Virus record (IMG/VR): IMGVR_UViG_3300020118_000066
Coordinates: 1-50,477 of that record
Origin: a virus
Length of the DNA stretch: 50,477 nt
Reading direction: 5' to 3' (one strand)
The translations under genes were made by a program, and so were the position numbers. Below the pieces are notes generated by a model that saw nothing but the letters and a program-made list of their open reading frames with translations, was not told where the DNA came from and searched no databases. Of this stretch, positions 3,265-37,243 are shown piece by piece. Every line of letters starts with the position of its first letter. The first letter of the stretch is position 1.

Positions 3265-3666
3265 ATGGAGGAAAACAACCGCACTGCCACCACCAAGATG
3301 TTGGGTGGGGTGACCGGTAAGGGCTTCCTCCCCGGGCAATCCGGGAACCCCAGCGGTCGCCCCAGAAGCGTTGCCAACCTCATTCGGGAACACACTAAGA
3401 ACGGCGCCGAACTGGTGACCTTCTTGCTGGACGCGCTAAGAGACCCAGACTGGAAGCCCGCCGACCGCCTCAAGGCGGCCGACATGCTTCTGGACCGCGG
3501 CTGCTTCCCCAAGGATTTAGGAGCCGGCAATGGAGGACAGCCCCCAGTCTTCGATGTCGAAAAACTCACTGACACAGAACGAGATTTCATCTCTGCTTTC
3601 CTTGCTGGACTCTCTACCATCCAAGCACGCCTTAGAAGCGGAGAGGCTGAAGCGCAGCCTCAGTGA
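3265..3666 (+). CDS. DUF5681-type protein, probable terminase small subunit
   Basis: Residues 20-35 carry the signature GFLPGQSGNPSGRPRS of the DUF5681 family, whose members are common immediately before phage large terminases. A helical region follows (Asn-Leu-Ile-Arg-Glu-His, then an Ala/Leu-rich stretch with RLKAADMLLDRG, reminiscent of small-terminase helices). The 3' end overlaps the large terminase gene by 137 bases in another frame, so the two are translationally linked. The ribosome site is weak. Role assigned by family context: recognition of phage DNA and loading of the packaging motor. The exact C-terminal extent inside the overlap is less certain. Confidence 0.65.
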   Translation: MEENNRTATTKMLGGVTGKGFLPGQSGNPSGRPRSVANLIREHTKNGAELVTFLLDALRDPDWKPADRLKAADMLLDRGCFPKDLGAGNGGQPPVFDVEKLTDTERDFISAFLAGLSTIQARLRSGEAEAQPQ

Positions 3667-5209
3667 GTTCGTTAAGGCCGCTTGGCACCTTGTAGAACCC
3701 GCTACTCCACTCGTTTGGAATTGGCATCTCGAGGCGATCTGTCTTCATCTCCAGGCCGTCACCGAAGGACGCATCAGAAAACTGATTATTAACGTCCCTC
3801 CGCGCACGGGTAAGTCCACCATCGTCTCTGTGCTCTGGCCTGTGTGGGAATGGACGCGCAATCCTTCGGTGCGCATGATGTTCGCCAGCTATGCTCAGCA
3901 GCTATCGCTTCGCGACTCCGTGCGCCGGCGCCTGGTGATCCTGTCGGAATGGTTTCAGGAGCGGTGGCCTGGCGTCAAGCTCTCGAGCGACCAGAACGTC
4001 AAGCACGAGTTCCAGAATACCGCGCTCGGGTACATGGTCGCTACAAGTACTGGAGGTACCGTCACCGGCCGCGGCGGCGATCGGCTCGTGTTGGATGACC
4101 CCAACGACGCCACACAGATGGAATCTGAAGTCGAGCGAGAATCAGCGCTAACGTGGTTTGATTTGCAATGGTCCACTCGAGGCAATAACCCCAACACCTA
4201 TGCCGAAGTCATCATCCAGCAGCGCACGCACGAACAGGATATTACGGGCCATGCCCTCAGGCAAGGCGAGTGGACGCACCTTAAATTGCCGATGGAATAT
4301 GCTGGCGCGAAATGCGCCACCGTTATAGGCTGGTCGGACCCAAGGGAGAGCGTCGGGGAACTGCTGGATGCGAAAAGGTTTTCGAAAGAAGCGGTCGAAA
4401 CCCTCAAGCGCCGGCTCGGGCCTTACGGGGCTTCCGGTCAGCTCCAGCAAGAGCCCTCCCCAAGCGAAGGCGGCATCATCAAGCGCGCCTGGATCCGCAA
4501 CTATCAAAGGGATGGCGATTACATTTCATTGCTCCATCACCGCTTCCCCATCCAGGACTGCATTCGGTTTGCGACAGTCGACCTCGCGGTAACGAAGAAA
4601 GACACCGACAAGGCAGACCCAGACTACACCGTCATAGCCGCGTGGTGCGTGTTCAACATGGTTGGCAAAGGTCCGGTGCTTTGCCTTCTGGACCTCTTCC
4701 GGGAGCGCGTGGAGGGCCCGGACATCGAACAGCACATCATCGCTTGGCACAACCATTACAAATTCTCCATGGTGGGGATTGAAACGATTGGCTTTCAGCT
4801 ATTGATTGCCCAGTCGCTCTTGCGCAAAGGCGTGCCAGTTCGCGAGATGTCCAATAGCTTGGAGGCGATCTACCGGCTTGATCGGGACAAGGTGGCGCGC
4901 GCTTATTCGGCCACGCCACTCATGGCCGACGGCCGGTTCTGGGTGCCCACCTATGCGCCTTGGCTTGGGGAATACATCAAGGAGCTTACGGTGTTTCCGA
5001 ACTACGGCCATGACGACCAGGTCGACGTGACGTCCGCGGCGGTGTCCATTGCGGAGCTCATGCACCCGAGAGAATTTTCCGAAGAAGCCAAGCCCAAGCG
5101 GCGCGTGGAAGAGCACGTCGCGCAGGATGATATTCCAGTACGGGTAGACGTCTACGGGGGCGAAACCGATGGCGATCCCATGGCCGGCTTCCGGGTGCCG
5201 CGGCCTTGA
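3530..5209 (+). CDS. terL: Terminase large subunit (packaging ATPase and nuclease)
   Basis: The 559-residue product is the DNA-packaging motor. The ATPase half has Walker A VPPRTGKS (residues 89-96), an adenine/translocation strand MMFASYAQQLS near 116-126 and Walker B RLVLDDP (185-191). The RNase H-like nuclease half has FATVDLAV with Asp351, a VGIET strand (Glu418) and the closing acidic HDDQVD (494-499). It cuts concatemeric DNA and drives it through the portal, whose gene follows. TAGGAG lies about 8 bases before ATG 3530; an internal ATG at 3554 is an alternative. The gene is intact. Confidence 0.95.
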   Translation: MEDSPQSSMSKNSLTQNEISSLLSLLDSLPSKHALEAERLKRSLSEFVKAAWHLVEPATPLVWNWHLEAICLHLQAVTEGRIRKLIINVPPRTGKSTIVSVLWPVWEWTRNPSVRMMFASYAQQLSLRDSVRRRLVILSEWFQERWPGVKLSSDQNVKHEFQNTALGYMVATSTGGTVTGRGGDRLVLDDPNDATQMESEVERESALTWFDLQWSTRGNNPNTYAEVIIQQRTHEQDITGHALRQGEWTHLKLPMEYAGAKCATVIGWSDPRESVGELLDAKRFSKEAVETLKRRLGPYGASGQLQQEPSPSEGGIIKRAWIRNYQRDGDYISLLHHRFPIQDCIRFATVDLAVTKKDTDKADPDYTVIAAWCVFNMVGKGPVLCLLDLFRERVEGPDIEQHIIAWHNHYKFSMVGIETIGFQLLIAQSLLRKGVPVREMSNSLEAIYRLDRDKVARAYSATPLMADGRFWVPTYAPWLGEYIKELTVFPNYGHDDQVDVTSAAVSIAELMHPREFSEEAKPKRRVEEHVAQDDIPVRVDVYGGETDGDPMAGFRVPRP

Positions 5210-5267: not shown

Positions 5268-6755
5268 ATGGCTAATCCACTCCTGCAGAGGACAATCAAC
5301 GACGTCCTGTACGGGTACCAGCTATCCGCCACCTACAAATCCGCTTGGGTCTACGAGCAGTCCTACGCGCTTTCCAAAGACCCGGACATCTGGGAAGTCT
5401 TCCTCCGCGATACGTCGTTCGCCTCGAGCGTCGACCGCTTTCAAAACTCCATCGTCAGGCCTTTCCGGGTAGAGCCCCCCAAGGGGACCAAGAACACCCA
5501 GAGCAAGCGCGCGGCGCGCATCGTTGAGGACGGCATCCATCAGTCGATGCTGTTTGACGACATGCGCAAGCGTCTAGCCCTGGGACGCGCTCTTGGTCGC
5601 TCCTATGAGTTCGTGGTCTGGGATTACGTCCATTGCTCGCTGGGCGGCTTCCCTGAGATGGATTGGATGGTCCCTATTGCCTTTGAGAATATCGATCGCA
5701 GGCGTATCCATTGGGTGCCTGAATGGGGCCAGGAGCCCGATGGAACGCCCAAAAAGCGCACGCATCGGGAGCTGTACAACACCAACACCAATCAGTGGCA
5801 ACCCATCTCCACGGACTTCGAAGACGCGCTGATTGAGGACATCTACCCCGTCAGCGAAGACCGTGTTGGTCAGGGCCGCGGACTCTTGGAGCATTGCTAC
5901 GTCTACCACTACCTGAAATCGGTGTTCATCGAGAAATGGGCGCAGGGCATCGACCGTTGGGCCAATGGCATCGTGATCGGCAAGATTGATACTGCGCGGC
6001 CTAGTTCACTTGGCAAGGCCGGCGCCACACTCCAAAGCGCCATGCAAGCGGTGTTGCAGAAGGCGCGCAGCGAACACGTCATTGTCTTGGATAAGGCCGA
6101 TGAAATCGAAGTGGTCGAAACTAGCGGCACCGGCCACGAGATGATTAACTCTGCCCTCGAGTACATCGATTCCTCGGTGGAGCGGCTTTGGAACGGATCG
6201 GTGCGGCCCTCTGGGCACGCTACGTCCACGGGTGCTCGCGCTCAGTCGGAGACGGAATCCGATACCTCAGAGTCGTTCTACCAGCCCTATCGCCAGCACC
6301 AGGACGAAATCCTGACGCGGGATCTGGTTGGGTACTTCTGGCGCCATCCGGTCAACAAGATGAATCGCTTTAAGCTTGGCCTTGGCATGGCGGAGCGTCC
6401 GCACTTCTCTAGCGAACAGGTCAAGCGTAAAGATCCGCTCACCGCTATTCAGATTGTGGCTCAGGCCAGGCAGGCTGGAATCCCGCTTCTCAAGAGCGAA
6501 GTCTACGAAGACCTGGAGTATTCTCAGCCCGAGCCCGACGAGGATGTCTTCGACGGCGCCATGGCTATGATGGGCGAAGATGGTGGCCTTGATGCCGCCG
6601 GCGCCGCGGGTGGCTTCCGTCCCCAAGGCGGGGAAGCCGCGCAAGCCAAGGAAGCGAAGGACGATAAAGATCTAGCCATGGCAGAGGCTTCTGGGGCCTC
6701 GGAGGGGGGTGATAACAAACCTTTTCCTAAAGCAAAGCCCGGCTCGGACAAGTGA
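5268..6755 (+). CDS. Portal protein, DUF935 / Mu gp29-like
   Basis: The 495-residue protein matches the DUF935 portal family of Mu-like phages in length and in features such as the conserved KWAQGIDRWANGIVIGKID-like core (about residues 225-243), the segment EIEVVETSGTGHE and a SVERLWNGS helix. The portal is the dodecameric ring at the capsid vertex through which terminase pumps DNA and to which the tail attaches. The last ~70 residues are acidic and Gly/Ala-rich (MAMMGEDGG onward), a probable disordered tail. AGGAG lies directly before the ATG. A TTGACA at 5238 has no convincing -10 box. Confidence 0.88.
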   Translation: MANPLLQRTINDVLYGYQLSATYKSAWVYEQSYALSKDPDIWEVFLRDTSFASSVDRFQNSIVRPFRVEPPKGTKNTQSKRAARIVEDGIHQSMLFDDMRKRLALGRALGRSYEFVVWDYVHCSLGGFPEMDWMVPIAFENIDRRRIHWVPEWGQEPDGTPKKRTHRELYNTNTNQWQPISTDFEDALIEDIYPVSEDRVGQGRGLLEHCYVYHYLKSVFIEKWAQGIDRWANGIVIGKIDTARPSSLGKAGATLQSAMQAVLQKARSEHVIVLDKADEIEVVETSGTGHEMINSALEYIDSSVERLWNGSVRPSGHATSTGARAQSETESDTSESFYQPYRQHQDEILTRDLVGYFWRHPVNKMNRFKLGLGMAERPHFSSEQVKRKDPLTAIQIVAQARQAGIPLLKSEVYEDLEYSQPEPDEDVFDGAMAMMGEDGGLDAAGAAGGFRPQGGEAAQAKEAKDDKDLAMAEASGASEGGDNKPFPKAKPGSDK

Positions 6756-6823: not shown

Positions 6824-7465
6824 TTGCGGCTTACAGCCGGATCTTGTAGCGGGCAATCCGCTACCATTGTCGGTGGTGGACCATCACTCCGAGGGTTTGA
6901 CCTCTCGCGTCTCTTTGGTAAGCGCAATATCATCTGCATCAACGCAGCGTTCCGCCACGTCTCATTTGCGGATGCTGTCTTCAGCGAGGATATACGTTTC
7001 ATCGAGCGCTTCGGAAACGAACTCCAGCTATTCCAGGGCAAAGTAATCTGGCATTGCCTGAAGGGCGTTGACCCAGAGCGCGGATTAAAGGCCTGCCCTA
7101 AGATCACCACAATCCTGGAGCGTAGGGACGATAAATACTGGTCGACCTCGCTTGATTCCCTTTCGTTCAGCAGCAATTCTGTAGTCGGGGCCATCAACTT
7201 GGCTGAGATTCTGGGGTGCCATACCATTTACATCCTGGGGGTGGATTGCCGAGCGGAAGGCCTCATGGTTGAGAACTTCCACAGCGACTATCCGCAAGAG
7301 TGGCAAGTCGGAGCCATGCAGGCACTCAACTGGAAAAGCGACTTCGAGCATTGGGTAGCGCCGAACTGCAAGGCCAACGTGGTGAACGTCATCAATCCTT
7401 CTTACGAATCGACCCTCGAATGCTGGCCCAAGATGAGCCTGGAGGCTTTCTGTGATGTGGCATGA
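6824..7465 (+). CDS. DUF115-like (MptE/Maf-related) protein, possible glycan-modifying enzyme
   Basis: The 213-residue product has the ATIVGGGPSLRGFD loop (13-26), then IICINAAFRHVSFADAVFSED, the pattern of Rossmann-like DUF115 proteins: a glycine-rich GGGPS nucleotide loop, an Asn-Ala 'ordinary person' strand and an acidic Ser-Glu-Asp. Relatives include the motility-accessory (Maf) sugar transferases and phage proteins in sugar loci. The start is TTG at 6824 with GAGGGGG ahead; the frame is closed by a stop at 6794, so no longer start exists. It opens the modification island and overlaps the next gene (ATGA). Substrate unknown. Confidence 0.65.
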   Translation: MRLTAGSCSGQSATIVGGGPSLRGFDLSRLFGKRNIICINAAFRHVSFADAVFSEDIRFIERFGNELQLFQGKVIWHCLKGVDPERGLKACPKITTILERRDDKYWSTSLDSLSFSSNSVVGAINLAEILGCHTIYILGVDCRAEGLMVENFHSDYPQEWQVGAMQALNWKSDFEHWVAPNCKANVVNVINPSYESTLECWPKMSLEAFCDVA

Positions 7466-8055
7466 TTAAAGTCATTTCCTATTACAGCCCTGAATACGCA
7501 AAGTATGCCCAGCGGCTCACGGCCTCTCTCGTGCGCTTTAGCTGCGATTACCAAGTGGTCAACATGCCAAAGTTCCGAAGCTGGCACGACGGCGTATCCT
7601 TCAAACCCACCTACATCATGCACGCCATGGATAACTTCACAAGCTATGACGGCGTGCTTTGGTTGGATGCAGACTGTTATCTGAAGCGCGCGCTACCGTG
7701 GGATGAGCTGGCCGGCGCGGATATCGCCGCTACTCGCTTCCGCTGGAGCCCATCCCATAAGAACGAAATGCTGACAGGCACGCTGTACTTCGCCAACAAC
7801 CAGAAAACAAGGCTCCTGGTGGAGCAATGGGCTGGTGACACCAAGAAGTATTCGCACAGCGACACCCCAGAACAGGATTCGTTGCTCTACCTCGTGCAGA
7901 CTTGGGGCCATTCGATCCTCTTCAAAGACCTGGGGATCGATTGGACGTACATCGATGATCCCCTGGTGAAGCAGCAATACCCGAAAGCTGATCCCATCGT
8001 GGTCCATACCCAGGCCTCTCGGGAGGTGAAAAAGCTTGGGCAAGCTAAAGCGTAG
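7462..8055 (+). CDS. Glycosyltransferase, GT-A fold with DxD motif
   Basis: The 197-residue protein begins MIKVISYYSPEYAKYAQRL, the first strand and helix of a nucleotide-sugar transferase. The metal-binding DAD sits at 69-71 in DGVLWLDADCY. A later SHKNEMLTGTLYFAN strand and EQDSLLYLV helix (acidic acceptor or base region) fit family 8-like transferases. It would move a sugar from a nucleotide donor to an unknown acceptor in the cytoplasm. The start overlaps the upstream stop (ATGA), so it is co-translated with the DUF115-like gene. Confidence 0.75.
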   Translation: MIKVISYYSPEYAKYAQRLTASLVRFSCDYQVVNMPKFRSWHDGVSFKPTYIMHAMDNFTSYDGVLWLDADCYLKRALPWDELAGADIAATRFRWSPSHKNEMLTGTLYFANNQKTRLLVEQWAGDTKKYSHSDTPEQDSLLYLVQTWGHSILFKDLGIDWTYIDDPLVKQQYPKADPIVVHTQASREVKKLGQAKA

Positions 8056-8161
8056 GCGCAAGGTGAGGCCGAAGCCGAAGGTTCGCAGGGTGCGGATTAA
8101 GGGTGGACATACGCTTGAGATCGTGGACTGGCCTATAGGCGACCAGAACCTAAATGGGTGA
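8036..8161 (+). CDS. Small very basic protein (41 aa)
   Basis: TTG at 8036 is about 9 bases after a GGGAGG site. The frame encodes MGKLKRRRKVRPKPKVRRV followed by a short strand-like tail, and ends inside the start of the next gene. It overlaps both neighbours, like the other genes of the island. A third of its residues are Lys or Arg. The start codon and small size make it uncertain; it could also be a chance frame in basic-codon sequence. Confidence 0.4.
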   Translation: MGKLKRRRKVRPKPKVRRVRIKGGHTLEIVDWPIGDQNLNG

Positions 8162-8828
8162 TCCGAAAGTAACGGTCTTGATGCCCGTGGCGCGCGCCGA
8201 TCGCGCTCAGGCCGCGGTCAAAACCTGGACCGCAGCCGGCTACGACATGGTGCTTTACCAGGACAGCGGCACGACGCCATTTACCAATCAACCCACCCTG
8301 ACTGGCCCATATCAAGGAGTATGGCATGCCACTAATCTTCTGGCTCGGTTTGCTCTTAGCCTCGGCGCCGATGTCTGCGTGTTTGCTGGTGATGATATGG
8401 AGCCGGATCCGACCAATTCCCCGGTATCCATTGCAAGAGAGTACCTCGAGCGTTTCCCCGATGGCCTTGGCCTTATGCAGCCATGCGGCGATCCACAAGG
8501 CGTTGATGGAAGTGGTAGACCAGCTTCGGCAAGGATCTGTGGATCACCCTGGTTTGGCGCTGGCTGGATTCTCCGTGCGTATCGAGGGCTCGGGCCAACT
8601 CTGGGACTGTACTACCATTTTTATGCCGACGAAGAGCTACATGATGTCGCGGCCACCCTTAACCTACTTGTGATGCGGCCAGACCTGACGCAGTACCACA
8701 AGCATTGGAGCTGGGGACATACCCAACGCGAAGCGTACCACGAGAAAGCCAACACTCATTTCCAGTCCGATCAGCGGCTTTTCTTTGAGCGTCAGAAGAA
8801 CGGTTTTCCTGGGAGCGAACTCTTGTGA
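8154..8828 (+). CDS. Glycosyltransferase-like protein (GT-A)
   Basis: The 224-residue product opens with KVTVLMPVARADRAQAAV, the Rossmann-type first strand of family 2-like transferases, and has the acidic AGDDMEPD at about 78-85 in the position of the metal-binding DxD. GSPWFGAGWILRAYRGLG and YADEELHDVA resemble the acceptor side and its catalytic acidic residues. Substrates are unknown. It overlaps the next gene by the GTGA stop/start. The family call rests on motif order; the fold is likely but the sugar cannot be told. Confidence 0.65.
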   Translation: MGDPKVTVLMPVARADRAQAAVKTWTAAGYDMVLYQDSGTTPFTNQPTLTGPYQGVWHATNLLARFALSLGADVCVFAGDDMEPDPTNSPVSIAREYLERFPDGLGLMQPCGDPQGVDGSGRPASARICGSPWFGAGWILRAYRGLGPTLGLYYHFYADEELHDVAATLNLLVMRPDLTQYHKHWSWGHTQREAYHEKANTHFQSDQRLFFERQKNGFPGSELL

Positions 8829-9286
8829 AGCTATCCGAACTCGTTTTTTCCTCCACTCGCTTCCTGATGCTCGGAAAGTGCGACAAGGAGTTGCAGCTCT
8901 TCCGCGAGATGGGTTGCGAGGGGATCGCGGTCAATGCCGCTCCAGGCGACCTGAGCGACGAAGACTATTACGGCAGGATAACGTTCATTGACGGCAACTT
9001 AAACCACGAGGCGCACTTTACCCGCCTGATGAACGGCAAGTGGGTCAAGCCGCTGACCGTCAAGGACATCTTCGACCAGTGGGGGGATAAGAAATACAAC
9101 CTCATCATGATCGATGTGCCGATGCTCACGCGGTATCTCTGGTACTCAGAACAGATCCAGGTCCATATGCCGAAATATCACCTCCTGCGCGAAGATGGCC
9201 ACAATGAAGCCGTGGTGGAGAAGGCCAAACAACTTGGGTATGCGGCAATCGTGATTGAGGGGGATTGGCTCCTCTTGTACAAGTGA
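8825..9286 (+). CDS. Hypothetical protein of the modification island
   Basis: GTG start overlapping the previous stop (GTGA). The 153-residue product has a Rossmann-like alternation: STRFLMLGKCDKELQLF, then YNLIMIDVPMLTRYLW in the place where a SAM or nucleotide enzyme keeps its acidic strand, and AAIVIEGDWLLLYK at the end. I do not recognise the family; a small methyltransferase-like or partner domain is possible. Its place among glycosyltransferases suggests a role in the same pathway. Confidence 0.6.
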   Translation: MKLSELVFSSTRFLMLGKCDKELQLFREMGCEGIAVNAAPGDLSDEDYYGRITFIDGNLNHEAHFTRLMNGKWVKPLTVKDIFDQWGDKKYNLIMIDVPMLTRYLWYSEQIQVHMPKYHLLREDGHNEAVVEKAKQLGYAAIVIEGDWLLLYK

Positions 9287-10068
9287 GGATAATCAGCCTC
9301 TCCTTCTTCCGTCATGCCAAGAGTAATTATGAAATCCCCGCATGCGGGGAAAATATGGGCGTGTTTTTCGCGAACTTCCTCCATTCCCTCATCCATGCCC
9401 ATTGGGCCGTCTGGGATGCCAATTGGTGGCTTGAGATCGCCCACGATGATCGGGTAACTGAACTGCGGGAGTTTCGGTTTCTTGAGGCTCTGGAGCGGCA
9501 TAGCTTAATCCGTCTCCGAGACTGCGGCGCTGCTAAGACGCTGTGCGGATCAATGCTCTGGCGCATGGATCCAGTGTTCGACAAGGATGTGGAAGTGGTG
9601 GTGTGCCGGGACATCGACAGTCTGCCGATGCACCGGGACCGCAAGATGGTCGAGGCCTTCATTGCCTCGCGCGGCACCGTTCACGCCATCCACGACAGCG
9701 AGAGCCATTCTGGGCCGCTGATGGGCGGCATGATCGCCATTAAGTCTGCCGGCTTCCCATACTCCAAAGACCAGTGGGAAGCGCTCAAAACCGGATATGA
9801 CCTTACCGAACACGGTTCCGACCAGAGGTTTTTGAATGAACACCTATACCCAAGAATTGCTTCAAACCTTCTCGTTCATACTCGCCGGCCTACTCTGTCT
9901 TACCCTTGCCTGCGCAGCTATCCAGCACTTACGCAGGAAACCGCGCTAGACCACGCAGTACGGCATATTGGCGCCGGTTATTCCACCGACGCAGTCATGA
10001 AGATCCTCGAGAACACGGAGTATCCGAATAAGGCCTTGATTGAGGAGTGTTGGAACTCCACCAAATGA
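9283..10068 (+). CDS. Glycosyltransferase-like protein with Asp-Ile-Asp motif
   Basis: GTG at 9283 overlaps the preceding TGA, the linkage used across this island; a TTG at 9265 in the same frame is less likely. The 261-residue product begins MRIISLSFF and carries VEVVVCRDIDSLPMHRD, with DID at 110-112 as the likely metal-binding motif. HDSESHSGPLMGGMIAIKSAGF resembles the region that closes over the donor sugar, and GSDQRFLNE near 190-200 has the DQ-x-x-x-N/F pattern common in family 8-like enzymes. Substrate unknown. Confidence 0.7.
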   Translation: MRIISLSFFRHAKSNYEIPACGENMGVFFANFLHSLIHAHWAVWDANWWLEIAHDDRVTELREFRFLEALERHSLIRLRDCGAAKTLCGSMLWRMDPVFDKDVEVVVCRDIDSLPMHRDRKMVEAFIASRGTVHAIHDSESHSGPLMGGMIAIKSAGFPYSKDQWEALKTGYDLTEHGSDQRFLNEHLYPRIASNLLVHTRRPTLSYPCLRSYPALTQETALDHAVRHIGAGYSTDAVMKILENTEYPNKALIEECWNSTK

Positions 10069-10241
10069 AGCCCTGCGAGATATGTGGCACGAATACGGCG
10101 GGCTTGGCGTACGTCAACGGCTCGCATCATCCGTGCTGCGGTCCATGCCTTACCAAGCTAGAGAAGAAAACGAAACCGGATCATTGTGAATGTGACTGTC
10201 ATTTGAGTTACGACAACCAAACCTGTTGTGTCTGCCAATGA
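10065..10241 (+). CDS. Small cysteine-rich zinc-binding protein (58 aa)
   Basis: ATG at 10065 overlaps the upstream TGA. The product has four paired-cysteine sites in 58 residues: Cys-x-x-Cys at 4-7, Cys-Cys-x-x-Cys near 30-34, Cys-x-Cys-x-Cys near 47-51 and Cys-Cys-x-Cys at the end. It probably binds two zinc ions and is likely to be a protein- or RNA-binding adaptor. No family is recognised. It is locked in the island by overlaps on both sides. Confidence 0.65.
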   Translation: MKPCEICGTNTAGLAYVNGSHHPCCGPCLTKLEKKTKPDHCECDCHLSYDNQTCCVCQ

Positions 10242-11308
10242 AAATCTGGAATCTCGACGCCCATGCGGCAGTCATTACCGACGTCAAGAAGCAACTTGGC
10301 GAGCTTGGCCACCAGGTGGATAGCTGGAACTTGACGGGTCATTACTGGACTCAGAATCTACCGCAGCGCACAAGCTGGCGCGGCTTCAAGACGGACTTTA
10401 TCTGGGATTACAGTCCACAGAAGTGCAAGGAAGAGCACGGCGAGCACCTGGCGCAGTACGACGCCACGCTAGTCTGTTATCCGCCGCTCATGGTGCGACT
10501 CTTCGATGCCATCGACAAGCCGATGATTCAGTATCTCCCGGTGCGCTATGACCTTTGGACCACCGACAATCGCCAGCGGTGGGAGAGTTATCACCAGTGG
10601 TGGGGCGAGCGGGTGCGGGAAAGGCGTCTCTTCGTGGCCGCCAACTCCCTGTACGACGTCTTCTACTGCAAATACTTCACCGGCATCGAGCCCGCTTACA
10701 TTCCATCGATTTGTGATTACGTGGGGGTCCAGTATGCTCCTGAGAATCGCCCTGTTCTTCTATGGGATTCTCGAAGCGAAAAGGTCTCTAGCCTGTTCAT
10801 TCAAAACCTTCAGGATCAATTGGCACTCCCGCGGCAGTATTACGGAGGACGGTACGAGTGGGCCAATCTAGTTAAGCATCGCGCGATTGTCCACGTTCCG
10901 TACAACGCCTCCATCATGTCGTTCTTCGAACACTATTGGATGAACATTCCACTGTTCGTCCCGACGCCGGAATACATGCTGGAGCTCAAGCGGCTGTATG
11001 GGGCGATCGGGGAGATTACCCACAACCAGTGCGCGAACCACGCGCCCCCGGGATCGTTCATCGGCGGCACCTTCAGCGCTCCGGATCCGAACGAATACGA
11101 TGACATCGCCTCTCTGCGCTGGTGGATGAAATTCTGGGATATGTTTGTCCTTCCCCACGTTACCTACTTCTCCTCCATCGCAGACCTGCGACAGAAACTT
11201 GCCACCGCGGATCTGCCGGCGATCTCGGCTGCCATGAAGCAGGAGAACGCGAAGCGCAAGGCGGATGCGCTGGGCAAATGGCGCGAATTCATTGGGGGCG
11301 TCAAGTGA
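10238..11308 (+). CDS. Probable GT-B-fold glycosyltransferase
   Basis: ATG 10238 overlaps the upstream stop. The 356-residue product starts MKIWNLDAHAAVITDVKKQL and has AQYDATLVCYPPLM followed by KPMIQYLPVRYDLW, the Rossmann half of a GT-B enzyme where a target or partner name is read. The second half has RPVLLWDSRSEK, then KHRAIVHVPYNASIMSFFEHYWMNIPLFVP, which matches the nucleotide-sugar end of GT-B enzymes (a helix that begins with Ser/Phe-Glu and a following Pro-Leu strand). The donor and acceptor are unknown. One of the larger enzymes of the island. Confidence 0.6.
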   Translation: MKIWNLDAHAAVITDVKKQLGELGHQVDSWNLTGHYWTQNLPQRTSWRGFKTDFIWDYSPQKCKEEHGEHLAQYDATLVCYPPLMVRLFDAIDKPMIQYLPVRYDLWTTDNRQRWESYHQWWGERVRERRLFVAANSLYDVFYCKYFTGIEPAYIPSICDYVGVQYAPENRPVLLWDSRSEKVSSLFIQNLQDQLALPRQYYGGRYEWANLVKHRAIVHVPYNASIMSFFEHYWMNIPLFVPTPEYMLELKRLYGAIGEITHNQCANHAPPGSFIGGTFSAPDPNEYDDIASLRWWMKFWDMFVLPHVTYFSSIADLRQKLATADLPAISAAMKQENAKRKADALGKWREFIGGVK

Positions 11309-11916
11309 CCTATTCCACCCAAGGTGAAGACGACGCCCTGATGGTCTATTTTGGGAAGCACGTTGGGCGCTTCCTGGACATTGGCGCCGCGAACGGGATC
11401 ACGCTTTCCAATACCCACCTTATGGCCCAGGCTGGCTGGAGCGGCGTTTGCCTGGATGCCAACGCCCAAGAGCTTTTCAACCTCAACAACCTCTACTGGG
11501 ATAACCCGCGCATTGAGATCGTCCAAGGCCTGATTTCCGACGGCCACGGTCTTAAGGAGTTCTGGAATGCGAAAAGCGCCAACACCTCGACGTCGTCCCG
11601 GCGAATGCAAGATCGTGGACGGGAGCGATTGGGCGCTCGTCAATGCTGGGTGGCTGGAATTACCTTATCAGACTTGTTTGTGCAATTCGGCTATGACTTC
11701 GACTTTATCAACATCGATCTGGAGGATGGAACGCTGCCCATTATGCGGGCACTCCCGATTGATAAGCTCAGACAATGTCGGGCTCTTTGCATCGAACACC
11801 TCAAGCCGGAATGGTATTTCGGTGAGAACGAAGAAAACGAAATCAAAGCGTGGGGCGAAGTAAATGGGTTTCGGGTGCTTTTGAGGACCGATGAAAATGT
11901 GGTGCTCGCCAAATGA
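11305..11916 (+). CDS. FkbM-family SAM-dependent methyltransferase
   Basis: GTG 11305 overlaps the preceding stop. The 203-residue protein begins TYSTQGEDDALMVYF, then the SAM loop RFLDIGAANG (22-31), CLDAN as the acidic end of strand 2, the ANTSTSS segment typical of FkbM proteins, and FINIDLEDG in place of the usual ID-x-EG. These enzymes O-methylate sugars or polyketides and recur in glycan loci. ITLSDLFVQFG and the closing VLLRTDENVVLAK also fit the family. Probably methylates a sugar laid down by the neighbouring transferases; that is inference. Confidence 0.75.
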   Translation: MTYSTQGEDDALMVYFGKHVGRFLDIGAANGITLSNTHLMAQAGWSGVCLDANAQELFNLNNLYWDNPRIEIVQGLISDGHGLKEFWNAKSANTSTSSRRMQDRGRERLGARQCWVAGITLSDLFVQFGYDFDFINIDLEDGTLPIMRALPIDKLRQCRALCIEHLKPEWYFGENEENEIKAWGEVNGFRVLLRTDENVVLAK

Positions 11917-12398
11917 CTGATTTAGGGGTTCATTCGCACCTTCCGTGGCTGGCAAGTCTTGCGGCTCAGACCAAGGGCACATTCCTTGAGCTCGGCACGG
12001 GCGACTATTCGACGCCGTTTCTTAATGCTGCGGTGGCCAATCGCGGCAGACTCTTGATTAGTTACGAGACCGAGAAATGGTGGGCCGAGAAGATCGCTCA
12101 CTTTGAGAGCCCGGACCATCGAATCGTCATGGTGGACAAGTGGGATGATGTGGAATTCCCGGAAGCAGACGTTGCCTTTGTTGACTTTCACCCTGGGGAC
12201 GAACGAGTCAAGGTTATCCGTCGCCTACAGGGAAAGATCAAGTTCATCATTGCCCACGATACAGAGGCGGATATTCCACCGGCCGCTGGGGCCTATGGAT
12301 GGGCCTCGCTGGATGGGGTCTTCAAGTACCAAACCATCCTGAAGACTTTCCGACCGTGGTCTACGGTCTACAGCGACGTGGAGGAATTCAAGCCGTGA
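11913..12398 (+). CDS. SAM-dependent methyltransferase-like protein (class I)
   Basis: ATG 11913 overlaps the upstream stop (ATGA). The 161-residue product has GTFLELGTGDYSTPFL (22-37), a SAM-binding first strand and glycine loop, followed by RLLISYETEKWWAE, with the acidic Glu ending strand 2, and DVAFVDFHPGDERV. FIIAHDTEAD is likely strand 5. It is small for the class and lacks a clear substrate domain. Likely another modification enzyme of the island; target unknown. Confidence 0.65.
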   Translation: MTDLGVHSHLPWLASLAAQTKGTFLELGTGDYSTPFLNAAVANRGRLLISYETEKWWAEKIAHFESPDHRIVMVDKWDDVEFPEADVAFVDFHPGDERVKVIRRLQGKIKFIIAHDTEADIPPAAGAYGWASLDGVFKYQTILKTFRPWSTVYSDVEEFKP

Positions 12399-13066
12399 AC
12401 CAGGCGGAAAAAGACTTCTGCGATATGGTCATGGTGGCCGGCGTCCACGAGGCGAAGTATCACACCTTCGACTACGTTGAAACCATCCTGCGCGAGGAGA
12501 TCACTGGGGACTTCGTGGAATGCGGGGTCTTCTGTGGCGGTCATGCCGCGGTGGCTTCCTACGTCTTCCGGAAGTGGGGCGTTAAAGATCGCAAGATCCA
12601 CCTGTTTGATTCATTCTGCGGCATCCCCAAAGCCGGTCCAGAAGATTGCGCCGACGTCCACGCCACCTATGGGACGTCTTCAGGGAAAATGGAGACGAGC
12701 GGCAAGTGCGCTATCGGCATGCAGCAGATAAAGGATTACTTCCGTGGCTGGGAGATCCCCACTGATTATCTCGTCTTCCATCCTGGCTGGTTTGAGGAAA
12801 CCATGGCGGAAGACGCCAAGCATATCGGGCAAATTGCGTTCCTGCGCATTGACGTCGACCTCTACAGCTCTACCAAGACCTGCTATGAGCACCTTTACCA
12901 CAAGGTTTCTAAAGGTGGCGTGGTGGTGGATGACGACTACGGCTTTCACTCCGATGAGCCAGGCCCCGCGTGTCGTAGGGCTATGCGCGAGGTGATCGGC
13001 CAGCCGGCCAATGTGTTCGAGGTAAACGGGCATCCAACCACTTCGTTCTGGAGGATCCCGACGTGA
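12395..13066 (+). CDS. TylF/macrocin O-methyltransferase-like enzyme
   Basis: GTG 12395 overlaps the previous stop. The 223-residue product shows the TylF order: DFVECGVFCGGHA (39-51) as SAM loop, HLFDSFCGIPKAGPED (69-84) with the acidic ribose-binding Asp, the LRIDVDLYSST metal strand (150-160) and KGGVVVDDDYG (173-183). TylF enzymes are Mg-dependent sugar O-methyltransferases. It is the third methyltransferase in a row, which suggests a methylated glycan. The intact motifs argue for an active enzyme. Confidence 0.85.
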   Translation: MNQAEKDFCDMVMVAGVHEAKYHTFDYVETILREEITGDFVECGVFCGGHAAVASYVFRKWGVKDRKIHLFDSFCGIPKAGPEDCADVHATYGTSSGKMETSGKCAIGMQQIKDYFRGWEIPTDYLVFHPGWFEETMAEDAKHIGQIAFLRIDVDLYSSTKTCYEHLYHKVSKGGVVVDDDYGFHSDEPGPACRRAMREVIGQPANVFEVNGHPTTSFWRIPT

Positions 13067-13932
13067 AGCTGATCGGCCTCATGCTGGTCCGCAACGAAGC
13101 TTGGATTTTGGGCATGACCGCTCGTGCGGCGCTTCGGTGGTGTGATTCGCTTCTCATATTCATGGACCGTTGCACAGACAATACCGACCGCATCGTTGAT
13201 GGTCTCGTTAAGGATTGCGGCGCTGACCGTGTCTCCTATCAGCATACCGAGCAAGCCGAGCACTGGAATGAAATGGATATCCGCCACCAGATGCTAGTGG
13301 ATGGCCGCGGGATGGGCGGTACACACTTCGCCATGATCGATGCTGACGAGGCGGTTACCAACAACCAATTGGACAACGCGCGAGCTTATACTGCAGCACT
13401 TAAGCCGGGGCAGGTGCTTGACTTCCCGATGATCTGTCCGCACCGTGGGCTGGATAAGTACCGAGACGACCATACCGTTTGGAGTAGATCGCAGCTTAGT
13501 ATTTCATTCTGTGACAGGCCCGATCTAGCTTGGCGTGCTCGCAATGGCTATCAATTCCATCAGCGCTGCCCACAAGGTTCCGGGGATCATGCCAACCCAC
13601 TAGCTAACGATAAATCCAAGGGCGGCGCCTTCCACTTCCAGTGGGTTTCGTGGGACCGCATTACCGCCAAGCACCGCTGGTACAAGATGAACGAAGTAGT
13701 GCGGTGGCCGAACCGAAATACTCCGTTCGAGGTGGACCGCATCTATTCGCAAGCTTTGGATGAAGACGGGCTCCGTACGCGGCAGATTCCCAAAAGCTGG
13801 TTTGGGGACTACGAGATGCACTTCGTCTATCCCGATCATCAGCCATGGCACATGGTGGAGTGCCAGCGGATGTGGGAGCAGCACGGGCCGGAACGCTTCC
13901 ATGGTCTGAATCTTTGGGGCTGGCCGTCATGA
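13063..13932 (+). CDS. Family 2/92-like glycosyltransferase
   Basis: GTG 13063 overlaps the previous stop. The 289-residue product opens IGLMLVRNEAWILG (4-17), the 'RNE' start of GT2- and GT92-like enzymes acting on named targets, then SLLIFMDRCTDNTDRIV with its Asp-x-Cys-Thr-Asp-Asn nucleotide loop, and FAMIDADEAV with DAD at 93-95 as metal site. The C-terminal half holds many Trp and His residues (KGGAFHFQWVSWDRITAKHRWYKMNE). It is intact and the best-defined GT-A enzyme here. Acceptor unknown. Confidence 0.8.
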   Translation: MKLIGLMLVRNEAWILGMTARAALRWCDSLLIFMDRCTDNTDRIVDGLVKDCGADRVSYQHTEQAEHWNEMDIRHQMLVDGRGMGGTHFAMIDADEAVTNNQLDNARAYTAALKPGQVLDFPMICPHRGLDKYRDDHTVWSRSQLSISFCDRPDLAWRARNGYQFHQRCPQGSGDHANPLANDKSKGGAFHFQWVSWDRITAKHRWYKMNEVVRWPNRNTPFEVDRIYSQALDEDGLRTRQIPKSWFGDYEMHFVYPDHQPWHMVECQRMWEQHGPERFHGLNLWGWPS

Positions 13933-14744
13933 CGATCCCCCCGTTTAAGGTTTTGTATGAAGCCCCCAGGATTGTGCTGTTTCCCGACTTCGTTAGCCAG
14001 CAGGAGGCGGATAAACTCCTCGAGCTTGCGGAGCCTAACTACCGAGATTCCACCGTGGTCGACATGGAAACGGGTGGCCCAACCACCAATGACTACCGAA
14101 CTGGCGAGCTTGCGTTAATAGACACTAAAGCTGACGTTTCTATAGCCATCCAGCAGCGCGTATCGGAGGTCTGCAAGACCAGGCTAAAGCAGCATGAAGG
14201 GCTGCAGGTCATCAAGTATGGAGTTGGGAATCAATATCTACCCCATACGGACTGGTTTGATTATCGCATCAAAGGGATGCTCAAGGTGATGCGCCAGGGT
14301 GGGCAGCGGGTATTCTCGGTCATCATCTGTCTAAAGGAAGCCCAGAAGGGTGGCGAAACGGAGTTCCCGAAGCTGAAGCTGAAGATCAAGCTGAAGCCGC
14401 GCGAGGCGCTCATTTTCGATAACCTTAGGGCGGAAGATAAAGTCCCAGACTTGGATACCACCCATGCTGGGCGCCCAGTCACGATCGGTGAAAAGGTCAT
14501 TGTTGCATTCTGGATCCGAGAGCGCGCGTTCGACGGCAGCGAAGAGCCGCCGAATGGGATGATAACCATGGAGGATCTTAAGAAGATTCGCACCATGCGC
14601 GAAGAGGCGTGCGCCGCGGATCTCCCTAAGTTCCTGGAGCACTATAACTGCATGCTGCGCGTCGTCTCGAGCCCCTATCTTGATGGCGACGGCATGCTCA
14701 ACATACAGACCGATATGATTATCGAATCCAAAAAGGAGGAATGA
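13929..14744 (+). CDS. Prolyl 4-hydroxylase-like 2OG-Fe(II) dioxygenase
   Basis: ATG 13929 overlaps the preceding stop (ATGA). The 271-residue product has the P4H alpha-type layout: FPDFVSQQEADKLLELA at 18-34 as lead-in, YLPHTDWFD with His106 and Asp108 as iron ligands, GGETEFP (141-147), the distal iron histidine in TTHAGRP (His179), and the 2-oxoglutarate lysine in GEKVIVAFWIRE (Lys189). All three iron ligands and the anchor are present. Such enzymes hydroxylate proline, or occasionally other residues, in proteins. After residue 200 a ~70-residue tail has no clear family. It ends the run of sugar genes, 3 bp before the GroES-like gene. Confidence 0.85.
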   Translation: MTIPPFKVLYEAPRIVLFPDFVSQQEADKLLELAEPNYRDSTVVDMETGGPTTNDYRTGELALIDTKADVSIAIQQRVSEVCKTRLKQHEGLQVIKYGVGNQYLPHTDWFDYRIKGMLKVMRQGGQRVFSVIICLKEAQKGGETEFPKLKLKIKLKPREALIFDNLRAEDKVPDLDTTHAGRPVTIGEKVIVAFWIRERAFDGSEEPPNGMITMEDLKKIRTMREEACAADLPKFLEHYNCMLRVVSSPYLDGDGMLNIQTDMIIESKKEE

Positions 14745-14747
14745 GCG

Positions 14748-15410
14748 GTGGTTGACCAGTTCTCTATCATCCAGGATAGGCTTGATCCCGACAAGGTTTA
14801 TCCCTATGCGGATCACGTGCTCATCAAGAGGCACGTCAACGAAGAATCTAAAGGTGGCATCCTGATCGTGAACGGTGAGAAATCAGAATGCTGCTATGGC
14901 GAAGTCCTTCGGGTTGGTGGCGGCTGGACTGCCGAGGCAACCGGCGAGGTGTTCCCCCCGGAGCTCAAGCCCGGAGACTGGACGGTTTCCATGGATTACA
15001 TTGGAGAGAAGGTCAAGGACGGCGTCAACCTCGTCAATTACAAGCTCATCCGGGACCACGGCATCTGGGCCAAGGTCAAGGTGGACCGCACGGAGCTAGG
15101 TGGAATCCGGCTGGTCGATATCGACCCCTACGAGAATAAGCTCCTAGTGCGCATCACAGAGGAATTGAAAACCGCAGGCGGCGTCCTGCTTTCCGATAAT
15201 CACCAACTCCGCGGATATACCATGGCCACCGTGATAAAAGTTGGTCCAGGCAAGCGGGATAGAAAGACCGGCTTCCGATACAAAATCGAAGCCAAGCCAG
15301 GTGACAGAGTATGCATGCTGCGGTATGCTGGAGCGATCGTCAAGCTGGACCACGAGAATCTGAGACTCATAGAAGACACGGACATTCATTACATCGAGGT
15401 GAAGAAGTGA
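14748..15410 (+). CDS. Tandem-fused GroES-like (Cpn10) co-chaperonin
   Basis: The 220-residue product contains two GroES-like modules. The first (about 18-110) has ADHVLIKRHVNEESKGGILI, the beta-strand and mobile-loop region, then YGEVLRVGGG and LKPGDWTVSMDYIGEKV. The second (about 124-217) repeats the plan: ENKLLVRITEELKTAGGVLL, ATVIKVGPGKRD, AKPGDRVCMLRYAGAIVKL and a closing strand. Single-domain phage co-chaperonins such as T4 gp31 cap host GroEL during capsid folding. The double form recalls chloroplast Cpn20. GTG start preceded by GGAGGAATGAG. Its place just before the remaining head genes fits capsid folding, or enlarging the GroEL cage for a large or modified client. Confidence 0.8.
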   Translation: MVDQFSIIQDRLDPDKVYPYADHVLIKRHVNEESKGGILIVNGEKSECCYGEVLRVGGGWTAEATGEVFPPELKPGDWTVSMDYIGEKVKDGVNLVNYKLIRDHGIWAKVKVDRTELGGIRLVDIDPYENKLLVRITEELKTAGGVLLSDNHQLRGYTMATVIKVGPGKRDRKTGFRYKIEAKPGDRVCMLRYAGAIVKLDHENLRLIEDTDIHYIEVKK

Positions 15411-15718
15411 GCGAAGACGGATGGACTTGGAAGATCGGCATTCTAAACGGCGTTGGCTCGGCAGCATGGCAGGAGCTTAGCGGTAAGGTTAGGCGAATCA
15501 CACAGCTCCAGAGCGTGGATGCCGGCCTCTTTCCGACGAAGTGCGCCCCGTCCATTGGGGCGGCCGATCGTGAGCCCCAGTTTGATGTTCCTGGGCTGGT
15601 GGTTGTTTCTGCGGATCCAGACCCACAGCTCGCCGCCACCCTTGACCGTGTTTGGGGTGGCCTTGGACTGGTGATGCCTAAGAACGGGAAGTCGATTCCT
15701 GGGATGAAATTGGTATGA
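15407..15718 (+). CDS. Hypothetical head-region protein
   Basis: GTG 15407 overlaps the preceding TGA. The 103-residue product begins SEDGWTWKIGILNGVGSAAWQEL and is moderately strand-rich, with no cysteine pairs, membrane segments or recognised motif. It overlaps the next gene by ATGA. The head-operon context suggests a morphogenesis or regulatory helper, but nothing can be claimed from the sequence. Confidence 0.6.
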   Translation: MSEDGWTWKIGILNGVGSAAWQELSGKVRRITQLQSVDAGLFPTKCAPSIGAADREPQFDVPGLVVVSADPDPQLAATLDRVWGGLGLVMPKNGKSIPGMKLV

Positions 15719-15921
15719 GCGACCCAGAAGAATCGGAGCGTTACGCCGCCATCGTCGAAAACAACCAATTGATGCGGACGCTCCTGAAGCGTATGGATAC
15801 GCTTGAGACCCGCGTCAAAGCTCTGGAGGATCACTGTAGGCTGTCCAAGGATTCAAGGTGTCCTTATTGCGGCCATCCAAATTCCCACGAACCGTGGTGC
15901 GAAAACAAGCACCCGAAATAA
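15715..15921 (+). CDS. Small coiled-coil protein with C-terminal zinc knuckle
   Basis: ATG 15715 overlaps the previous stop. The 68-residue product has a helical N-terminal part with heptad-like leucines (ENNQLMRTLLKRMDTLETRV and on to KALEDH) and a C-terminal CPYCGHPNSHEPWC, a Cys-x-x-Cys plus His/Cys zinc site. A small dimeric adaptor is likely. Family unknown. Confidence 0.6.
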   Translation: MSDPEESERYAAIVENNQLMRTLLKRMDTLETRVKALEDHCRLSKDSRCPYCGHPNSHEPWCENKHPK

Positions 15922-15923
15922 TT

Positions 15924-16790
15924 ATGCTTAGCGCACACGAGCAGCTCCACCGCTTCTTGGAGAAGCGGTCTACCGTCTTCTTCCAGGCCATGATGAACTT
16001 GGCCAAGTCGCACTACGGCCGATTCGATGGCGGGAAGCAAGACGCCATAAAAGAAATGGCTTACGTCATCGGCCGCACCATGATCCTGGCGGATCTGAAC
16101 GGTCGTAAGCGTCTATTGATGGAGGCTGACAAGGTCGCCAGCAAGTTCGCGGAAGAAAAGACACCCATCAGTAGCCTGCCGTTTGAAGAGGCGATCGAGG
16201 ATCTTGTATCCAGGGAACCTCGGCTTGCGAAGAGTTATATCGAGGTTAGCACACTTTACAATACCAGCCATACTTTTGCGCTTGCCCGCAGCGTCGACCT
16301 CAACCTAACGAAGCGCCTAGCCTCCGAGATTGAAAACATCACCAAGACCGGCGGCAACATGTTTGACTTCGAGAAGGTAGCAGAGGCCATTACACCATTC
16401 ACGCGCGCCTATGCGGACAACGTCTTCCGGACCAATACCGCAACAGCCTTCAATAACGGTCGCTTTGCGCAGGCGAAAGATCCAGACGTAAAGCAGGTAA
16501 TACCAGCGATGAGGTTTACCAGCTTGTGCATGCCAACGAGTCGGCCTTGGCACGTCGCTGCTGATGGAATGATCGCTGCCACAGATGACGTGATCTGGAA
16601 GACCTTCCATCCGCCACTTGGCTGGCAATGCCATTGCTCCGCGGACTTCGTCAGTAAGTTCGAGCTGGCCCGCCGCGGGCTTGTCAACGATGACGGGTCC
16701 GTGAAGCGCTTCCTCCCAGCCACATTCAACCAGGCTCATCCTGACGTTGGGTTTAGACCGTCCACGATTACTTTTGATGAGGTCGCGTAG
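15924..16790 (+). CDS. Mu gpF-like minor head / head morphogenesis protein
   Basis: ATG 15924 is 3 bp after the previous stop; the frame is open further upstream but the overlap would be long. The 288-residue product has the family's typical C-terminal domain: YADNVFRTNTATAFNNGRF, then PRMR-like PAMRFTSLCMPTSRPWHVAADG and HPPLGWQCHCSADFVSKFE, with the paired Cys-His-Cys. In Mu, gpF (gp30) is a minor capsid component needed for head assembly and sits after the portal. Here the modification island separates it from the portal gene. Length is shorter than Mu's protein. Confidence 0.85.
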   Translation: MLSAHEQLHRFLEKRSTVFFQAMMNLAKSHYGRFDGGKQDAIKEMAYVIGRTMILADLNGRKRLLMEADKVASKFAEEKTPISSLPFEEAIEDLVSREPRLAKSYIEVSTLYNTSHTFALARSVDLNLTKRLASEIENITKTGGNMFDFEKVAEAITPFTRAYADNVFRTNTATAFNNGRFAQAKDPDVKQVIPAMRFTSLCMPTSRPWHVAADGMIAATDDVIWKTFHPPLGWQCHCSADFVSKFELARRGLVNDDGSVKRFLPATFNQAHPDVGFRPSTITFDEVA

Positions 16791-19138: not shown

Positions 19139-20128
19139 ATGGCTAATCCAGTTTCGGTTGGCGCACTCCTGACGGCTGGACTTCGTCCTGAGTTCGCGAA
19201 CGTCTACCGCTTCAACTACACGGGCGTTGAAAAGCGCCTGCGCGACGTGGTCTGGCTGGACGCGACGTCCGACAAGATCAAGGAAATCTACGGCTACCTG
19301 CAGGCTGCGCCGTATCCCGTGCGCTGGCCCCGCGGCGCCGTTATTGATTCGAAGGACATTCTGTCCGTCCAGTTCTCGGTGCCCAATTTCGATTGGGGCC
19401 GCCGGATCTACATCCACGACAACGACATCCAGGACGATCAGACACAGACGGCTTACGTCGTCGCCCGCGAGCTTGGCGCCCACTGGGCCACGCTTGCGGA
19501 GCGGGTGTTCTACCAGGTCATGCAGAGCACGACGGACGCCAACCTGCTCCCGGCGATCCCGGTTGCCGCGGACGGCCTGAACCTGTACAGCGGCTCGTCC
19601 CGCTTCGGCGTGGCCACCGGCAACCAGTTCACGTCCACCGGAACTTCTACGGTGCAGCAGATCATCAACGACATCTACACCGTCAAGCAGACCTTCATCA
19701 ACTTCCAGGACACGGAAGGCCAGCCGCTCATGGATCCCGCGACGATCCAGGGCAACGGCTTCCGCATCTTCCATGGCCCGTCCATCACGCTCGTCATGGA
19801 GCAGGTGGCCAAGGCCATGATCGTGCCGATCGGCGCGAATACCGCTACGTCGAACGCCGGCGTCAGCAACCTGGTCATGGCCTCTGGGACGCCGATCGAC
19901 TTCGAGAACAACCAGCGCATCACTGGCACGAGCTACTACTCGTGGATGAAGGGCCTTTCGAACGATAAGCGCGGCTTCTTCCGCCAGGTTCGTCAGGGCT
20001 TCTTTGAGTCCGTCGGCAACTGGGAAGTGTCGGATCACACCCGTAACACGGGCGAAATCTACATCCAGTTCAAGACGCGCGAAGGCTACGGGCTGGCGCT
20101 CCCGTACAACACGATCAAAACGGTTTAA
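19139..20128 (+). CDS. Major capsid protein, Mu gpT-like
   Basis: The 329-residue product follows the protease and decoration genes and has Mu gpT-like character: GALLTAGLRPEFANVY at the start, then VWLDATSDKIKEIYGYL, RRIYIHDNDIQDDQTQTAYVVARELG (HK97-fold spine helix with Asp/Gln before it), ERVFYQVMQSTTDANLL, and a TRNTGEIYIQFKTREGYGLAL end. It is the main HK97-fold shell protein and the expected substrate of host GroEL with the GroES-like gene upstream. AGGAG precedes the ATG. Codons are strongly G/C-ending, as expected for a highly made protein. Confidence 0.85.
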   Translation: MANPVSVGALLTAGLRPEFANVYRFNYTGVEKRLRDVVWLDATSDKIKEIYGYLQAAPYPVRWPRGAVIDSKDILSVQFSVPNFDWGRRIYIHDNDIQDDQTQTAYVVARELGAHWATLAERVFYQVMQSTTDANLLPAIPVAADGLNLYSGSSRFGVATGNQFTSTGTSTVQQIINDIYTVKQTFINFQDTEGQPLMDPATIQGNGFRIFHGPSITLVMEQVAKAMIVPIGANTATSNAGVSNLVMASGTPIDFENNQRITGTSYYSWMKGLSNDKRGFFRQVRQGFFESVGNWEVSDHTRNTGEIYIQFKTREGYGLALPYNTIKTV

Positions 20129-36366: not shown

Positions 36367-36936
36367 GTGCGCTGCTTCACATTCCACACCGGCGGAAAGT
36401 ACGCAGCAAACGCGGAGGCCCTAAAGGCTTCGGCGGAAGCGGTGGGGCTTGAATGTGTCGTTTATGAGCGTCCCGATCTAGGCTCCTGGTGGAAGAACTG
36501 TAACCAAAAATGCGAGGTTGTCTACGAGGCCCTCAAGCGCTTTGGAGACGAGCCGATTATCTGGAACGACTCGGATACCCGCTACGTGTCCTACCCAAAA
36601 CTCTTCGAGAGCATCGAAGAGGACTTTGCGGCCTATTACATGACGCCGGCTGTTTCCATTGGTGGGACGATGTTCTTTAACGGCGCCTCCAAGGCCTTGC
36701 GCTATGTAGATGCCTGGCGTAACAACGTTCAGGCAAACCCAGAAAACGAGGACGATTCAATCAATTTCCGTCGCGCGCTTCAGGCGATTAGGCCGCGTTC
36801 CATCTTCCATCTACCGCCAGCCTATTGCTGGAACGAGAAAACCATGCGAGCCGGCTTCCCGGGCACTATACCGGTCATTGAACATTCGTACATTGGAGCC
36901 CACGATTATCCGGTGATTCTTGCAAAGGACGCATGA
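36367..36936 (+). CDS. Glycosyltransferase-like protein with Asp-Ser-Asp motif
   Basis: GTG start 2 bp after the preceding stop. The 189-residue product begins RCFTFHTGGKYAANAEAL as a first strand and loop, and has EPIIWNDSDTRYVSYP with DSD at 68-70, the DxD metal site of a GT-A enzyme. AVSIGGTMFFNGASKALRYV and ENEDDSINFRRAL follow the order of family 8-like transferases (as at 7462-8055, but only distantly alike). It lies with the fibre and lysis genes, away from the main island. Substrate unknown. Confidence 0.65.
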   Translation: MRCFTFHTGGKYAANAEALKASAEAVGLECVVYERPDLGSWWKNCNQKCEVVYEALKRFGDEPIIWNDSDTRYVSYPKLFESIEEDFAAYYMTPAVSIGGTMFFNGASKALRYVDAWRNNVQANPENEDDSINFRRALQAIRPRSIFHLPPAYCWNEKTMRAGFPGTIPVIEHSYIGAHDYPVILAKDA

Positions 36937-37225: not shown

Positions 37226-37243
37226 TAGTGGGTGAGGGGGAGT

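Follow-up and report, generated by a model that had tools for sequence, protein, structure and literature searches.

A putative virion-glycosylation island between the portal and gpF-like head genes of an uncultured Mu-type phage

Why would a phage carry about a dozen genes, among them several for glycosyltransferases and methyltransferases, between two genes of its head module? The question is raised by the uncultured virus record IMGVR_UViG_3300020118_000066, all 50,477 bases of which were analyzed (hereafter the window). Within its Mu-type head module, an island of about 12 genes and 8 kb (positions 6824–14744) separates the gene for the Mu-type portal (5268..6755; PF06074 (Portal_Mu), 3e-28) from that for a gpF-like head protein (15924..16790, start trimmed; PF04233 (Phage_Mu_F), 2e-11), with all of these genes on the plus strand. 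We propose, with a probability of about 0.7, that this is a virion-glycosylation island whose enzymes place a methylated sugar chain on the phage’s own particles.

The island is tightly packed. After gene starts had been trimmed to the preceding stop, 4-bp ATGA or GTGA overlaps were counted at 10 of the 11 within-island junctions, and the only non-overlapping junction is a 98-bp gap (window 8056–8153) between the first two glycosyltransferase genes, GT1 and GT2; the gene block and its coordinates are as described in the original prediction for this DNA. That prediction also held that the island breaks up a conserved portal-gpF pair, which is borne out by the relatives. A scan seeded with gpF only retrieved 43 of them, including 29 loci in which both portal and gpF were recognized, and the adjacency is genuinely broken in the window because 25 of these 29 keep a gap of at most 700 bp, compared with about 9.1 kb here. 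Clustering of the portals at 70% identity reduces the 29 loci to 19 clusters, 15 of which lie within the same 700 bp. Larger gaps were found in L032, with a Gfo/Idh-type oxidoreductase and two glycosyltransferases, and in L035, with a protein that has a methyltransferase domain (the gpF of L035 lies outside the set of open reading frames used for the count).

Which reactions could the island perform? The first gene (6824..7465) encodes a DUF115/MptE-like, sialyltransferase-like protein, in line with its earlier description as DUF115-like; the match to PF01973 is weak (3e-4, below the cut-off), the closest proteins are phage proteins named sialyltransferases (PHROG 4603, alpha-2,3-sialyltransferase, 8e-24), and the family profile reaches solved bacterial alpha-2,3/8-sialyltransferases of the CstII type (5e-4). 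About five glycosyltransferases with DxD-like motifs had been expected, four of which hold, as GT-A glycosyltransferases with invariant motifs of this type. GT1 (7462..8055), a GT-A-type glycosyltransferase, has a Nucleotid_trans match below the cut-off (0.002), a family profile that leads to xylosyltransferases (0.009), and a DxD motif (D69/D71) invariant across 10 aligned rows. GT2 (8154..8828) and GT3 (9283..10068) gave no family match and an uninformative sequence search of the PDB; they were assigned to the GT-A class because structure-based fold searches, as the original prediction had suggested, matched their predicted folds to GT-A enzymes in the PDB (at about 1e-5 for the GT2 model, with a predicted local distance difference test score (pLDDT) of 89, and about 1e-6 for the GT3 model, with a pLDDT of 76), matches that with their modest TM-scores support the fold class and not the substrate. 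D80-D81 of GT2 is invariant across 12 aligned rows, as are D116/D118 of GT3 and the DADE motif of GT2fam in their family alignments. The latter gene (13063..13932), which encodes a GT2-family glycosyltransferase (PF13704 (Glyco_tranf_2_4), 2e-8), is the hallmark of the island. The remaining candidate, a gene placed at 10226 (10238..11308 after trimming of its start), is unsupported as a glycosyltransferase and stays unclassified, with no family or structure match in Pfam, PHROG, and further searches. Outside the island, a further glycosyltransferase downstream of the tail-fiber region (36367..36936, plus strand) was confirmed as a member of the GT1 family that retains its DxD motif.

All three expected kinds of methyltransferase (FkbM, class I, and TylF) are present, but the methyltransferase-like proteins number four, as a short protein (8825..9286) without a Pfam match groups with FkbM proteins in local profile comparisons. 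The others are an FkbM-family methyltransferase (11305..11916, start trimmed; PF05050, 3e-8), the class I methyltransferase-like protein MT2 (11913..12398), which has no Pfam match and belongs to a family of seven with a conserved ELGxGxxSTP motif, and a TylF-type O-methyltransferase (12395..13066; PF05711, 2e-35). The last gene (13929..14744) encodes the anticipated prolyl-4-hydroxylase-like 2-oxoglutarate (2OG)-Fe(II) oxygenase (PF13640, 2e-12), which aligns with structures of bacterial and algal prolyl-4-hydroxylases (4e-22) and has the iron-binding HxD...H motif and the 2OG-binding Lys in register with them; the set also includes a small Cys-rich, possibly zinc-binding protein (10065..10241, start trimmed; weak RING-type match, 0.015). 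From these sequence comparisons, a methylated-glycan pathway embedded in virion genes is well supported, while the protein hydroxylation proposed alongside it is plausible only, the oxygenase gene occurring in this phage alone among the relatives found.

How widespread is such an island? Neither the DNA of the region nor tblastn searches with the portal, Cpn10, GT2, and TylF proteins gave a match in 50,697 phage records, and the phage thus has no close isolate. Recognizable versions of the island, in similar order and at the same place, occur in about a dozen diverse uncultured phages; a chimeric assembly was ruled out, as independent contigs carry colinear islands. In L022 (portal 44% identical), the portal gene is followed by DUF115, GT1, GT2, the homologue of the 8825 gene, FkbM, GT3, MT2, TylF, and an epimerase/dehydratase, after which the order continues with GT2fam, a three-domain Cpn10, and gpF, for a portal-gpF gap of 14.7 kb. 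L069 has terminase, portal, island, and gpF without Cpn10, and most of the gene order is common to L068, L074, L075, and L080. Sister islands also encode a GDP-L-fucose-synthase-type enzyme (NF047922, 1.5e-82, below the model’s strict cut-off), a dTDP-glucose-dehydratase-like enzyme (sugar 4,6-dehydratase, 6e-57), a polysaccharide pyruvyl transferase (1e-12), and more methyltransferases, and a scan of 51 further proteins added nine epimerase/dehydratases, seven FkbM proteins, and five pyruvyl transferases. The window’s own island has no sugar-nucleotide genes, and the fucose-synthase-type gene of L068, L069, and L075 sits where the window has its GT1-GT2 gap, which suggests a point of gene loss or gain.

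Related sets are found elsewhere among virion genes. A scan seeded with GT2fam only yielded 21 viral loci, with the gene directly upstream of gpF in 12 and among, or at most 4 kb from, head, packaging, neck, or tail genes of several backbones in 20; the exception, L086, is a fragment without informative flanks. In L071, where portal and gpF are adjacent, most of the set precedes the two terminase genes (small and large), and a DUF115 gene follows gpF. In L073, L078, and L082–L085, which have other backbones (that of L085 with an HK97-type protease and capsid), related sets lie among neck genes ahead of the major tail protein, and L072 has head genes no more than 4 kb further on. As to whether the island moves as a unit, a comparison proposed in the original prediction, similar ordered sets are found in about a dozen phages and recur at further virion loci. 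The GT2fam tree, in which the loci cluster mostly according to insertion context and the deep branches are weakly supported, does not support frequent movement and suggests transfers between backbones that seem genuine but few. The related island of L073, a 114-kb phage contig, also contains a radical SAM enzyme gene (L073:6413-7030, 1e-8). A scan of genome contigs gave two weak matches, one of them the contig of a viral locus; the same 4,726-base contig (L086/L089) is both a viral record and part of a metagenome bin assigned to Planctomycetota, which hints only weakly at a host.

What would the enzymes decorate? The original prediction had named virion and host surface together; a virion acceptor is favored because the methylated-glycan pathway sits steadily inside the virion genes of several backbones, with the host surface as the main rival. 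Virion glycosylation is also argued for by the closest known case, the Corndogvirus island, which occupies the same site and includes a homologous TylF enzyme. Glycosylation islands between portal and protease are already known from Cluster O mycobacteriophages, in which genes for an O-methyltransferase and for glycosyltransferases separate the portal gene from that of the capsid protease (PMC4351075), and PMC12363180 describes virion proteins of Corndog and Che8 as reported to be glycosylated (Freeman et al. 2023) and attributes the capsid glycosylation of Che8 to gp110. The Corndogvirus modification genes (Corndog gp35–gp38, Firecracker gp33–gp36) likewise lie directly between portal and head protease, and their O-methyltransferase (gp33/gp35) is homologous to the TylF protein of the window (4e-12 pairwise, 1.3e-17 by profile), with shared motifs. 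They differ in number (four genes in about 2.8 kb versus about 12 in 8 kb), in the capsid and protease families beside them, and in the lack of a DUF115, FkbM, prolyl-4-hydroxylase, or Cpn10 gene within that stretch. By analogy, the island likely works like the Corndog system, with one enzyme family (TylF) in common, a homology that concerns this enzyme and does not establish common descent of the whole island. Che8 gp108–gp110 also combine glycosyltransferases with a TylF-like domain, in the C-terminal part of gp108 (2e-10), but they lie at the right genome end outside the virion genes, and neither gp109 nor gp110 has a relative among the island proteins. A capsid glycosyltransferase of the Chlorovirus PBCV-1 (structures 2p6w, 2p72, and 2p73), which glycosylates a viral capsid protein, was among the structure matches of GT2 and GT3 and shares their GT-A fold class; PBCV-1 is, however, a eukaryotic virus, and TM-scores of 0.37–0.51 at 9–13% identity are not evidence of a shared substrate.

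If the island does glycosylate virions, we infer that its enzymes would be expressed late and jointly with the head proteins, from a single densely packed, translationally coupled run of genes. With sugar nucleotides taken from the host, the GT-A glycosyltransferases and the sialyltransferase-like enzyme would assemble an oligosaccharide on a virion protein at the particle surface, the TylF/FkbM-type methyltransferases would cap it by O-methylation, and sister phages would contribute GDP-fucose, deoxy-sugar, and pyruvate steps of their own. The prolyl-4-hydroxylase may act on a proline-rich virion protein, where hydroxylation perhaps generates acceptor sites. As acceptors, we can offer guesses: the protein encoded at 18601 (23% Ser/Thr) and the Pro-rich fiber-like protein encoded at 30463–32766, with up to 14 Pro per 50 residues. 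A more specific and quite doubtful variant is that the prolyl-4-hydroxylase makes hydroxyproline in this proline/glycine-rich fiber protein, which would then be O-glycosylated by the island glycosyltransferases and capped by the methyltransferases, as a phage version of plant-type hydroxyproline glycoproteins.

Several observations weigh against a role in virion glycosylation. No homology to Che8 gp109/gp110 or Firecracker gp34–gp36 was detectable for the glycosyltransferases of the island, and a phmmer search for a homologue of the Che8 gp110/Corndog gp38 glycosyltransferase found no match among the island proteins. A comparison of the Ser/Thr content of structural proteins between island-bearing and island-free phages was uninformative, because the sets were too unequal in size and the proteins in length. 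Finally, a relative of the hallmark GT2fam protein is encoded in a cyanophage cluster, that of P-SSM2, which is read as host-surface modification.

The main rival is accordingly that the enzymes change a glycan of the host cell surface, such as lipopolysaccharide or capsule, during infection or lysogeny, for instance to exclude other phages. The sugar cluster of the Prochlorococcus phage P-SSM2 (about 193–205 kb) unites the GT2fam relative (3e-32) with nucleotide-sugar epimerases, a GDP-fucose-synthase relative, and a methyltransferase, and a host-surface role has been proposed for clusters of this type; their trait of sugar-nucleotide and glycosyltransferase genes together recurs in the sister islands, though not in the window. 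Lysogeny is possible, as the window encodes a tyrosine recombinase. In the P-SSM2 stretch analyzed, however, the cluster lies beside hli and other metabolic genes, whereas the islands are inside virion genes in several backbones, and the 2OG oxygenase gene adjacent to the cluster gives no match to the prolyl-4-hydroxylase of the window. Moreover, enzymes expressed alongside the head proteins shortly before lysis would presumably come late for a change of the cell surface, and we consider this explanation possible but unlikely.

It is very improbable that the portal-gpF gap is a cargo site tolerant of insertions whose enzymes do not form one pathway: some relatives do hold other cargo there, such as a gene with an ADP-ribosyltransferase exoenzyme-type domain (4e-13) beside one that reads like a P-loop zeta-type kinase (L029:7339-9971), but similar enzyme sets in similar order recur across about a dozen diverse phages and other virion loci. 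Decoration of hypermodified bases in the phage genome, an option that the original prediction had kept, is extremely improbable: although glycosylation of DNA is known for phage glycosyltransferases (cited in PMC12619734), no thymidylate-synthase-type gene (PF00303) was found in the window and six related records (seven in total, some of them fragments), no base-modifying family was found among the other window proteins scanned, sister islands carry sugar-nucleotide and pyruvyl-transferase genes, and the pyruvyl transferase and TylF/FkbM enzymes better suit a free or protein-bound glycan than DNA.

Between the island and gpF lies a gene missed by the original prediction, which encodes a tandem two-domain GroES/Cpn10 co-chaperonin (14748..15410, plus strand; PF00166, 5e-26 over two stretches). 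Both domains score over the cut-off and keep their mobile loops (GGILI and GGVLL), and the best solved relatives are the two-domain chloroplast-type tandem Cpn23/Cpn20; fused two- or three-domain GroES/Cpn10 genes directly upstream of gpF were likewise seen in L022:15669-16598, L003:1859-2563, and L004:774-1466. Two small plus-strand genes ahead of gpF (15407–15718 and 15715–15921, starts trimmed) have homologues in L003 and L004. The head module further comprises the terminase (3530–5209) and a Mu-like gpT major head protein (19139–20128; weak match, 1e-4). Just past the tail-fiber region, a class 3 lipase domain is encoded at 37232–37951 (2.5e-25; PHROG esterase/lipase), adjoining small genes that could be lysis genes. 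Among the relatives, the gpF of L042 (L042:2557-4281) breaks off behind a conserved stretch with a Cys residue, where a long intein/Hint-like insert starts with FPAGTLV and ends with VANGIISAN, after which gpF resumes with CRC, and the portal reading frame of L032 (L032:1905-4403) extends to 832 residues, with a C-terminal part that by eye only reads like a topoisomerase IB catalytic domain.

Relative to the known islands of Cluster O, what is new here is the size and enzyme range, the occurrence across uncultured phages whose heads are of the Mu or HK97 type, the sugar-nucleotide genes of some members, and the prolyl-4-hydroxylase together with the tandem GroES in the window. A literature search, with most subscription journals outside its coverage, found no paper on these islands. 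The phage virion glycosylation reported so far involves small sets of genes from a few mycobacteriophages, and the island family described here is much larger and more diverse, with hallmark genes (GT2fam, DUF115, and GT2) that permit metagenomes to be searched for such islands. Outside the cultured collections, phages with a glycan coat may be common, which is relevant to adsorption, particle stability, and recognition.

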